Source of the DNA: Arthrobacter gandavensis
Lineage (GTDB): Bacteria; Actinomycetota; Actinomycetes; Actinomycetales; Micrococcaceae
Length of the DNA: 64,000 nt
Assembly (NCBI RefSeq): GCF_015355785.1
Contig: NZ_JADKYW010000006.1
Span: 1-64,000 of the forward strand
Direction: 5' to 3'
The position numbers were made by a program, and so were the translations under genes. The notes under the pieces are model-generated. The model worked only from the letters and a program-made list of their open reading frames with translations, had not been told where the DNA came from and ran no database searches. Below are positions 43,056 to 45,189 of this stretch, piece by piece; positions within the stretch are counted from its first letter, which is position 1; the number at the start of each line of letters is the position of its first letter.

Positions 43056-43811
43056 ATGCCAGGACCAGAGGCGGCGCGGCGGGCCATCGGCTCCGCTGCG
43101 GAGCGGGCGCGCCCGCGTGTACTCAACATCGGCCAGGTCCTCGCGGACCTGAGTGCCGAATTTCCCGGCATCAGCGCCTCCAAGATCCGGTTCCTGGAAG
43201 AAAAAGGACTGGTTTCCCCGCAGCGGACCGCCGCCGGATACCGGAAGTACACCTCCCAGGACGTCGAACGGCTCCGCTTTGTCCTGGCCCTGCAACGGGA
43301 CCAGTACCTGCCGCTGAAAGTCATCAAGGACTACCTCGATGCCGTTGACCGCGGAGAACGTCCCGAATCCCTGCCGGGGGGACTCACGCTGGCGCCCCGT
43401 GCGGTATCGGACCAGCTCGCCGGAGAACTGGCCGCCCGGACCCGTACCCGCCTGCTCTCGTTCGAAGAGCTCGTTACGGAATCGGGTGCCTCAGCTGAAC
43501 TGGTTCGCAGCCTGATCAGTTTCGGTCTTATCAGCGCACCAGAGCAGCAGTATGATGAACACGCCCTGAAGGTCACCAGGGCCTGCCGCCAGCTCGAGGC
43601 CCACGGCATCGAACCGAGGCACCTGCGGCCGTTCAGGGCGGCAGCGGACCGGGAAATGGGACTAGTGGAACGTGCCATTGCACCCGTTGCCTCGCGGCGG
43701 GATGTTGCCTCGCAGGCGAGGGCCGCCGAGGCGGCCCGGGAGATCAGCGACCTATGCCTGAGCCTGCACAGTGCCCTGGTCCACGGACAAATAGCCCGGA
43801 TGGAGAGCTGA
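43056..43811 (+). CDS. ftsR: MerR-type cell-division regulator FtsR
   Basis: A 251-residue regulator next to garA, the place of Rv1828 and corynebacterial FtsR. The winged helix reads LNIGQVLADLSAEFPGISAS, then IRFLEEKGLVSPQRTAAGYR. A second HTH-like part is SFEELVTESGASAELVRSLI, and the C-terminal helices follow. FtsR activates ftsZ in Corynebacterium. Twelve bases separate it from garA, so both are co-transcribed. The symbol is assigned from synteny and family. Confidence 0.88.
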   Translation: MPGPEAARRAIGSAAERARPRVLNIGQVLADLSAEFPGISASKIRFLEEKGLVSPQRTAAGYRKYTSQDVERLRFVLALQRDQYLPLKVIKDYLDAVDRGERPESLPGGLTLAPRAVSDQLAGELAARTRTRLLSFEELVTESGASAELVRSLISFGLISAPEQQYDEHALKVTRACRQLEAHGIEPRHLRPFRAAADREMGLVERAIAPVASRRDVASQARAAEAAREISDLCLSLHSALVHGQIARMES

Positions 43812-43816
43812 AACCG

Positions 43817-44314
43817 ATGCAGGAAGTCGAAGTGGTGGGCGTTCGGATCGAACTCCCGTCCAACCAGCCCCTGGTCCTGCTGAAGGAAACGGAGGGGGAG
43901 CGGCACCTGCCCATCTGGATTGGTGCACCCGAAGCAAGCGCCATAGCCTTTGTGCAGCAGGGGATTGTTCCGCCGCGTCCCATGACCCATGACCTGATGG
44001 CAGCCGTGATCAAGGCGCTGGGCCGCCGGGTCACCGAAGTTCGACTGGTCTCCGTGGAAGACACGGTCTTCCACGCCGAGCTGGTGTTCGACGACGGCAC
44101 GCGGGTGGGGTCCCGCGCTTCCGACGCGATCGCCGTCGCACTTCGGGTTCCGTGCCCCATTATGTGTGCCGAGACCGTCCTGGAAGAGGCCGGGGTGCGA
44201 ATTACCGAGTCCGATGCCGAGGACGACGAGGATGAAGCCGAGAACGCCGAGCAGGAGCTGCGGCAGTTCCGGGAGTTCCTCGCCGACGTCGAACCCGAGG
44301 ACTTTGAGCGCTGA
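43817..44314 (+). CDS. Bifunctional nuclease family protein
   Basis: A 165-residue protein of the BFN domain family (Rv1829-like position). The domain covers about residues 1-125: VVGVRIELPSNQPLVLLKE, LPIWIGAPEASAIAF, and SDAIAVALRVPCPI. A short acidic helix forms the C-terminus. Plant members have DNase and RNase activity; the bacterial role is unknown. ATG 43817 follows ftsR by five bases and has GGAGAG nine bases upstream. An alternative start inside ftsR adds a Pro-rich tail and is less likely. Confidence 0.9.
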   Translation: MQEVEVVGVRIELPSNQPLVLLKETEGERHLPIWIGAPEASAIAFVQQGIVPPRPMTHDLMAAVIKALGRRVTEVRLVSVEDTVFHAELVFDDGTRVGSRASDAIAVALRVPCPIMCAETVLEEAGVRITESDAEDDEDEAENAEQELRQFREFLADVEPEDFER

Positions 44315-44351: not shown

Positions 44352-44380
44352 TTGACCTTGCCCGTGCACGGATCTAACGT
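44352..44380 (+). promoter_or_regulatory. Sigma-A-type promoter of the MerR gene
   Basis: TTGACC (44352-44357), a 17-bp spacer and TAACGT (44375-44380) form a good housekeeping promoter. Transcription would begin near 44387, giving a leader of about 160 bases before GTG 44547. This promoter separates the MerR gene from the preceding garA-ftsR-nuclease operon. Confidence 0.6.
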
Positions 44381-44394
44381 CGAAGCATAGAGTT

Positions 44395-44510
44395 CCCATT
44401 GCGCCGATGGGTTACCGGAGACACACTAGGAAAACTGCAGGCACCAGTGCCTGCAGGACCCAGGTCCAGCAGGGCACGGTCGGTCCGTCTCCGCTTAGGT
44501 AACCAAGCGG
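44395..44510 (+). promoter_or_regulatory. Candidate structured 5' leader with alternative helices
   Basis: Several complementary segments lie in this leader. GGTTACC (44410-44416) pairs with GGTAACC (44498-44504). GGAGAC (44417-44422) pairs with GTCTCC (44487-44492). Inside is the 10-bp hairpin CTGCAGGCAC/GTGCCTGCAG (44435-44456). CCGCTT (44491-44496) can pair instead with AAGCGG (44505-44510), enclosing GGTAACC in its loop. CCCAT (44395-44399) competes for ATGGG (44407-44411). The ribosome site AGGAGG begins 27 bases after 44510. The layout looks like a switch or pseudoknot; I cannot match it to a known riboswitch class. Confidence 0.5.
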
Positions 44511-44546
44511 CTTCAGACGTTGCGGGGACCAATACTAGGAGGAACA

Positions 44547-45137
44547 GTGAGTCCGAAAGGCGATGCCGGCGAACACCGCGCTGCAGCACCCGGAAAGGTT
44601 CTGCCGGCAAGTGCCCAGGGACTGCTGTTCACCGAAGACCTGCCGGTTCTTGATAAAGACGCCGGTTACCGCGGACCTACTGCCTGCAAGGCAGCAGGCA
44701 TCACGTACCGCCAGCTCGACTACTGGGCACGCACCGGGCTGGTGGAGCCCGCGGTCCGCGGAGCTTCCGGATCCGGGACCCAGCGCCTCTACAGCTTCCG
44801 GGACATCCTCGTCCTGAAGGTCGTGAAGCGCCTGCTTGATACCGGGGTGTCCCTGCAGCAGATCCGTACCGCCGTGGAACACCTGCGCGAGCGCGGCGTG
44901 GAGGATCTTGCCCAGATCACCCTGATGAGCGACGGCGCGAGCGTCTATGAATGCACGTCCGCGGATGAAGTCATTGACCTGGTCCAGGGCGGACAGGGTG
45001 TCTTCGGGATCGCCGTCGGCCGGGTGTGGCGTGAAGTTGAGGGCAGCCTGGCGCAGCTTCCCAGTGAACACGCAGATGATCATTCTTTCCCGGAAGACGA
45101 GCTCAGCCGCCGCCGGGCTGCACGCAAAATCAGCTAG
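44547..45137 (+). CDS. MerR-family regulator (Rv1830-like)
   Basis: A 196-residue regulator. After about 50 residues of tail, the MerR winged helix reads ACKAAGITYRQLDYWARTGL then SFRDILVLKVVKRLLDTG and SLQQIRTAVEHLRERG. A small C-terminal domain has ECTSADEVIDLVQGGQGVFGIAVG. It is the homolog by position of Rv1830 (McdR/ResR), linked to growth and division in mycobacteria. The start is GTG 44547 with AGGAGG four bases upstream. A long structured leader precedes it. Confidence 0.88.
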   Translation: MSPKGDAGEHRAAAPGKVLPASAQGLLFTEDLPVLDKDAGYRGPTACKAAGITYRQLDYWARTGLVEPAVRGASGSGTQRLYSFRDILVLKVVKRLLDTGVSLQQIRTAVEHLRERGVEDLAQITLMSDGASVYECTSADEVIDLVQGGQGVFGIAVGRVWREVEGSLAQLPSEHADDHSFPEDELSRRRAARKIS

Positions 45138-45154: not shown

Positions 45155-45189
45155 GAAAGGCCGCTTTCCCGGGAGGGAAGCGGCCTTTC
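45155..45189. terminator. Bidirectional terminator
   Basis: GAAAGGCCGCTTTCCC (45155-45170) faces AGGGAAGCGGCCTTTC, a stem of at least 14 bp with A and T edges. It separates the convergent MerR and ParA-like genes. Confidence 0.85.

Follow-up and report, generated by a model that had tools for sequence, protein, structure and literature searches.

ResR/McdR (Rv1830) is reportedly required for growth and tied to drug resilience in Mycobacterium tuberculosis (PMC10336103). A four-gene cluster of Actinobacteria, odhI/garA-ftsR-nuclease-MerR, sets a MerR-family gene close to ftsR, whose product, the neighbour of ResR, controls ftsZ (PMC6683498). In M. tuberculosis, a dedicated SigA promoter serves resR, with a start mapped 90 bases upstream, and the published ResR operator reads AATnACA-n4-TGTnATT (PMC10336103). 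Candidate structured RNAs of Actinobacteria include mraW, msiK, and Actino-pnp (PMC2864571). Within the literature searched, which included the accessible parts of PMC10336103, PMC6683498, PMC6429828, and PMC2864571, with subscription papers outside the search, the regulation of the growth and division regulator ResR itself is little described, and the leader that we analyze here is not described.

The window analyzed is a 64,000-nucleotide stretch of Arthrobacter gandavensis DNA, in which the leader lies on the forward strand between a bifunctional nuclease gene and a MerR-family gene (Table 1). An OdhI/GarA-like FHA gene also precedes the leader; it scores 165, where the OdhI cut-off is 200. 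Because this gene order is that of the odhI/garA-ftsR-nuclease-MerR cluster, and given the MerR domain of the product, we take the MerR gene to be the orthologue of Rv1830 and refer to it as resR. A reading made earlier from the sequence alone (the sequence-only reading) had called this gene division-linked, which accords with the synteny (PMC6683498) and with the ResR/McdR literature as far as the consulted text goes (PMC10336103). All 245 family genomes contain resR. Downstream, a G+C-rich inverted repeat at 45156-45188, AAAGGCCGCTTTCCC/GGGAAGCGGCCTTT, lies between the convergent resR and ParA-like genes and is probably their shared terminator.

Table 1. Features of the resR locus and of its leader in the A. 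gandavensis window.
Feature	Position	Strand	Basis
ftsR	43056-43811	+	NF050798, 277.7 bits, cut-off 150
Bifunctional nuclease gene, 5' of the leader	43817-44314	+	PF02577, 7.5e-40
Distal promoter (putative): -35 TTGACC 44352-44357, N17, -10 TAACGT 44375-44380	44352-44380	+	sequence
Leader RNA of resR	44387-44546	+	fold z -2.38; covariance model R1 match 44387-44541
P1a 5' strand, GUUCCC	44392-44397	+	pairs with 44524-44529, p 0.75; pairing kept in relatives
Internal promoter-like element: TTGCGC 44399-44404, 17 bases, CACACT 44422-44427	44399-44427	+	box spacing
P1b 5' strand, GCCG	44403-44406	+	pairs with 44508-44511, p 0.95
P2 5' strand, GGUUACC + GGAGAC	44410-44422	+	p 0.96 and 0.99
Inner hairpin, CTGCAGGCAC/GTGCCTGCAG, arms 44435-44444 and 44447-44456	44435-44456	+	mean p 0.84
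P2 3' strand: GUCUCC 44487-44492, GGUAACC 44498-44504	44487-44504	+	ensemble, subgroup comparison
Alternative hairpin, CCGCTT/AAGCGG	44491-44510	+	predicted only in the internal-promoter transcript
P1b 3' strand, CGGC	44508-44511	+	ensemble pairing with 44403-44406
P1a 3' strand, GGGGAC	44524-44529	+	ends 7 bases before AGGAGG
Shine-Dalgarno AGGAGG	44537-44542	+	sequence
MerR-family gene (resR), GTG start	44547-45137	+	PF13411, 1.8e-15; after FtsR and bifunctional nuclease

The predicted start of transcription from the distal promoter, about 44387-44389, fits the left edge given to the leader in the sequence-only reading. The spacing of this promoter is 17 in all 122 leaders compared, which had been pre-selected by a promoter pattern allowing a spacing of 16-19, and loci of more remote relatives share the layout (e.g. 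TTGACC-N17-TACCGT/TACCTT). With a stricter consensus, scanning gave no sigma-70 promoter at the position of the distal promoter. The predicted folding energy of the 160-base leader is -61.6 kcal/mol (z = -2.38), and 4 of 200 dinucleotide shuffles fold as well or better. Every pairing that had been named for the leader is present in the sequence. Duplex folding (leader L081) recovered the same 13-bp two-part closing stem, whose parts we call P1a and P1b; the strands of P1a are 126 bases apart. Inside it, GGTTACC at 44410-44416 pairs with GGTAACC at 44498-44504, as had been proposed, and GGAGAC at 44417-44422 pairs with GTCTCC at 44487-44492 (probabilities of 0.96 and 0.99 in the ensemble of the 160 bases); together these form P2. 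An inner hairpin described as having 10 bp is present with 9 pairs in the best structure, and is also a palindrome at the level of DNA. On the minus strand, this hairpin followed by TTTTCCTAGT (44435-44456) resembles an intrinsic terminator; a minus-strand terminator scan gave one match against a shuffle mean of 0.5, which is not above chance, and the T run beside the hairpin is absent in leaders L083 and L084.

We then compared leaders across the Micrococcaceae. Sources were genome contigs encoding 80 relatives of the MerR protein and DNA matches in 31 of 59 genomes, and 80 upstream stretches, selected by hand from 245 genomes, were retrieved. The distal promoter pattern was present in 151 upstream sequences, 123 of them distinct; L064 was dropped because no Shine-Dalgarno was found, leaving 122 leaders, of which 108 were anchored for box spacing. 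Most distinct leaders carry GUUCCC-A-UUGC or a variant at the 5' end and GGGAAC, GGGAGC, or a variant before the Shine-Dalgarno, and four, Glutamicibacter among them, are without P1 strands (L024, L031, L217, L218). For many Micrococcaceae, a two-part closing helix is predicted between the putative start of the transcript and the bases just ahead of the Shine-Dalgarno. Among leaders with P1 strands, the distance from the distal -10 region to the Shine-Dalgarno anchor ranges from 91 to 251 bases.

In a swap test on 108 leaders with a TTGC-like anchor, forming 39 clusters, cognate P1b strands paired better than swapped strands by a mean of -1.68 kcal/mol (p 0.0026), and a control strand from the untranscribed promoter spacer gave p 0.78. 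For P1a, the same test gave p 0.022. The variable pair of P1a is U-A in 71, U-G in 24, C-G in 10, and C-A in 1 of 106 leaders, a count that omits 10 leaders failing the strand pattern (L019, L146, L148, L161, L179, L202, L211, L214, L216, L219) as well as L213, L215, L024, L031, L217, and L218. A dependent-evolution test on P1a gave p 0.025, and its covariation was weak in tree-based simulation (P 0.076). By inspection, additional versions of P1a are GGUUCCAC/GUGGAACC (L220), GUUUCC/GGAAAC (L179), and GCUUCC/GGAAGC (L161), and the helix is broken in L170. RNAalifold, run on alignment A1 (21 short leaders of 25; four from the genus of A. gandavensis, L090, L094, L102, L109), found P1a alone, with six almost invariant pairs and no double change; DNA-level conservation could account for part of this invariance.

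At the level of whole leaders, P1 was predicted with a probability above 0.5 in 75 of 116, and end-to-end pairing beat shuffled leaders only modestly, z averaging -0.88 and falling below -1.5 in 23 of 116. Eighteen distant loci, from other families plus Glutamicibacter and Nesterenkonia, retain the distal promoter layout, and their end-to-end z lies between -1.6 and +2.0, a single locus being below -1.5. When whole 5' and 3' segments were swapped, the cognate combination was better in 70 of 122, a comparison that is uninformative because the strands are alike between species. A conserved hairpin P3 at the CACACU motif was considered and rejected, being clear in single leaders and giving p 0.26 over clusters. 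By inspection, L214 and L216 have a local hairpin, AAACUCCC/GGGGGAGUUU, right before the Shine-Dalgarno and a weak long-range P1a; the local hairpin is a possible competing or alternative form.

Within the subgroup of the A. gandavensis leader, six of the eight leaders have a full 7/7 complement to the P2 strand at one constant place (38 or 40 bases ahead of the Shine-Dalgarno anchor), and four sequence versions occur: GGUUACC/GGUAACC (A. gandavensis and L082), GGCUACC/GGUAGCC (L084), GGUCAUC/GAUGACC (L001 and L087), and GGUUAUC/GAUGGCC (L086). L083 and L085 have a 6/7 complement at this place. Leader L088, of the same genus as A. gandavensis, is identical to L001 (Arthrobacter gallicola, Micrococcaceae). 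As a 7/7 match anywhere in a shuffled leader has a chance of 0.065-0.24 each, what matters in the P2 evidence is the fixed place together with the changing sequence, which points to a compensated helix. Comparative support for the closing helix is moderate to good through P1b and subgroup P2, and moderate through P1a. The covariation that the sequence-only reading had named as its own check is therefore present for P1b and subgroup P2 and of moderate degree for P1a, and with covarying helices in orthologous leaders the 160-base stretch qualifies as a structured leader RNA, as had been proposed.

The same 5' half of the leader is also an internal promoter-like element with a fixed 17-base spacing, which the sequence-only reading had overlooked; it would start transcripts at about 44434-44436. 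For the pattern TTGC-N17-NANANT, the spacing was 17 in 92 and 18 in 4 of the 108 anchored leaders, with none at 10-16 or 19-23, and 14 further hexamer matches fell at spacings of 24-26, mostly in leaders already having one at 17. Among 116 leaders classified for co-loss of the boxes, 5 lacked the anchor; in the other 111, TTGC and NANANT were both kept in 93, both lost in 11, and discordant in 7. Boxes 16-18 apart with conserved A2 and T6 of the -10 are features of a sigma-A promoter, and the internal element shows them; A2, A4, and T6 are also the positions fixed by the hexamer search pattern. The internal -10 starts with C in most leaders and is thus a poor sigma-A match, and a strict promoter scan returned none at the internal element in the 64-kb window. 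A purely RNA role for the motif CACACUGGA was rejected, since a -10 box better explains both the NANANT pattern and the constant distance of 17 bases from TTGC, though the -10-box reading of CACACUGGA is not exclusive.

We tentatively read the resR leader of many Micrococcaceae as a clamp on the mRNA from the distal promoter, acting on stability or translation, and hold this at somewhat below even confidence. Distal-promoter transcripts would begin at most about 5 bases from the long-range helix of P1a and P1b, which P2 would extend in the subgroup. The clamp would join the 5' end to the stretch right before the Shine-Dalgarno and loop out a poorly conserved interior, while the same 5' bases would form the -35 box and spacer of the internal promoter-like element. 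A transcript from the internal promoter would lack the 5' strand and hence the clamp. Because the internal start omits that strand, there would be two resR mRNA isoforms with different 5' structures, and the distal isoform, with its base-paired 5' end, would carry a gene-specific stability or translation element. In some genera, a ResR-like operator just 3' of the internal -10 may let ResR set the isoform ratio. We infer that both promoters fire, that the isoforms exist and affect expression, and that ResR binds.

A rather unlikely alternative is that regulation occurs at the DNA level alone, through tandem promoters and operators, with the helices a by-product of GTTCCC/GGGAAC repeats in G+C-rich DNA. 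The fixed 17-base spacing, the co-loss of the boxes, and the near-invariance of P1a would all be expected from it. It cannot readily accommodate P1b and subgroup P2, which change sequence yet keep pairing, nor the distance of 91-251 bases that separates the Shine-Dalgarno anchor from the distal -10 region, a variation unlike that of an operator. An insertion clade of eight leaders from the same genus (L089, L091, L092, L095, L096, L097, L103, L107) bears on both readings. All eight are without TTGC, which supports a DNA constraint, from which an RNA constraint is only partly separable. When the two strands alone are paired, P1 is strong in four leaders (L095-L097, L107), and L089 shows P1b, whereas in the full fold P1 exceeds 0.5 in two of the eight (L089 and L107) and is poorly predicted in the other six. 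Taking this clade as proof of separate RNA and DNA constraints is weakened by the full-fold result, and because of it we weighted the clamp reading down and the DNA-level alternative up. In this clade, long C+T-rich insertions separate the 5' strand from the CACACTGAAG-type motif. CACACTGAAG or close variants persist there although no TTGC lies 17 bases away, a pattern equally compatible with an RNA role or a -10-only role.

Operator-like sites bear on the same question. The pattern AATnACA-N4-TGnnnTT, its right half having been loosened after the leaders had been inspected, occurs in 29 of 203 distinct upstream regions and in 1 of 10,500 shuffles; when scored by the consensus as published, 34 of 210 regions attain 10 of 12 positions. 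In 23 of 23 measurable cases, the site lies 19-21 bases after the internal -10, while its distance to the gene runs from 71 to 101 bases. Because the site is phased to the -10 while the gene distance varies, it supports the putative internal promoter and suggests ResR self-regulation in genera with the site; the same phasing would follow from regulation at the DNA level alone. A ResR-like operator is absent from the A. gandavensis leader, where the best match has 8 of 12 defined positions (p 0.23). Elsewhere in the genome to which this leader belongs (G000), a near-perfect ResR-type operator, AATTACACGCGTGTAATA, lies at L234:1501-1518 (G000:C6:339301-339318), with a plus-strand ORF at L234 1590-2357 downstream; the published consensus with one mismatch is found at four places in genome G000 and the reversed control pattern at none. 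An FtsR-like motif (published as AACCCTAAAGTAAAGGTTGAGGGTA) is seen 5' of the distal promoter in L007, L173, L042, and others, at 18-20 of 25 positions, and FtsR may control resR in these. We make no claim for this motif, as its best scores are 20 of 25 at most in other groups and 18 in certain leaders of the Arthrobacter type, against shuffle maxima of 13-19; the A. gandavensis upstream region scores 13 of 25.

A stronger form of the clamp reading would make the leader a promoter-choice RNA switch, in which about 30 bases serve as internal -35 and spacer in DNA and as clamp strand in RNA, and the choice of promoter, set by ResR in some genera, decides whether the clamp forms. We regard this version as improbable.

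The clamp reading also makes the accessibility of the Shine-Dalgarno relevant. In the 75 of 116 leaders with P1 above 0.5, blocking the 5' strand in silico reduced Shine-Dalgarno accessibility from 0.64 to 0.49 (lower in 53 leaders, higher in 10), compared with 0.605 for other blocked windows. Long transcripts had, on average, a more open Shine-Dalgarno than short ones across 96 leaders (0.59 vs 0.46; 55 more open, 16 less). For the A. gandavensis leader, the unpaired probability was 0.83 in the long and 0.79 in the short transcript, no clear effect, and 0.36 vs 0.49 when 60 bases of the gene were added. The clamp may keep the Shine-Dalgarno more open in many species, and not clearly in A. gandavensis. 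We rejected a model in which a C-rich strand hides the Shine-Dalgarno once the clamp forms, as folding gave the opposite sign on average.

Both the fall in predicted access when the 5' strand is blocked and the closing-helix architecture would suit a ligand- or protein-binding, riboswitch-like leader, in which an aptamer with the CACACURGA motif toggles P1 and the Shine-Dalgarno upon binding; the persistence of the CACACTGAAG-type motif in the insertion clade, where the 17-base spacing is gone, would suit it as well. We nonetheless consider it very doubtful, given that the interior is poorly conserved, that the hexamer variants follow a -10-like pattern, and that copies are confined as follows. 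Covariance model R1, built from 21 short leaders, four of the genus of A. gandavensis and none from the subgroup L081-L088, matches 36 of 120 family genomes, some of which had contributed sequences to R1, once each; the A. gandavensis leader (E 3.6e-7) is one of these matches. In at least 33 of the 36 genomes, among the resR matches listed, the R1 match ends 6-75 bases ahead of that to resR; the match in genome G088 (E 0.007) is not at resR, and G036 and G128 have no resR place among the matches listed. For the 84 genomes without an R1 match, a miss does not equal absence of the leader, as some have a resR leader too divergent for the model (e.g. G025, with leader L082) and stricter filters may lose weak copies. 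This single copy per matched genome, mostly directly upstream of resR, had escaped the sequence-only reading. Metabolite riboswitches recur before several pathway genes; here all 36 matched genomes have one copy, and because at least 33 of these are directly upstream of resR, a multi-gene riboswitch is unlikely.

Searches of known families agree with this. A cmscan of the 64-kb window against Rfam 15 found one tRNA elsewhere and no other family at the gathering threshold; at E<=10, the leader gave one chance microRNA match (13.4 bits against a threshold of 100), and the leaders of 12 relatives gave no match. A known riboswitch finds no support, given this lack of Rfam matches, in line with the sequence-only reading, which had recognized no riboswitch consensus. 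Returning to the clamp reading, comparison between genomes provides its helices, its box spacing, the one model match per matched genome, and the position of the putative operator.

It is highly improbable that a single transcript switches between the closing structure and the two competing helices of the sequence-only reading, for although the complementary sequences exist and CCGCTT/AAGCGG is predicted to form in a transcript that lacks the 5' half (0.97, reached only with a start near 44435), CCGCTT/AAGCGG and CCCAT/ATGGG are both unpopulated in the full-length leader (0.00 and 0.01), and the former is recognizable, by inspection, only in the closest relatives of the A. gandavensis leader. 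The pseudoknot that the sequence-only reading had considered possible is likewise unsupported by the present analysis.

As a gene-specific leader RNA the resR leader is new, while its general kind is known, and what is unusual is that it overlaps an internal promoter-like element. It is a candidate case of a single DNA stretch under constraint in two roles, promoter and RNA strand. Together with a possible self-regulated second promoter, the leader RNA offers a testable control point for resR in laboratory actinobacteria that are harmless. 5'-terminal stem elements, such as that of ompA, stabilize bacterial mRNA. Like these, the resR leader is predicted to be paired from only a few bases after its putative 5' end; unlike them, it has its partner strand far away (126 bases in A. 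gandavensis), right before the Shine-Dalgarno, and its role in stability is hypothetical. With mraW, msiK, and Actino-pnp, it shares the character of a structured RNA from comparative genomics confined to one bacterial group, and it differs from them in having no Rfam match by cmscan and in the genes concerned. The left half and 18-bp layout of the published ResR operator (PMC10336103) match the element in 29 of 203 upstream regions, whereas the putative sites have a relaxed right half, TGnnnTT, and the A. gandavensis leader is without a site. At the M. tuberculosis ResR/McdR (Rv1830) locus, the genes for FtsR and the nuclease are arranged in the same way (PMC6683498), and the available text of the two reports on it describes no folded clamp (PMC10336103, PMC6683498). 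Compared with the M. tuberculosis resR leader, that of A. gandavensis is longer and carries, in addition, a second promoter-like element.
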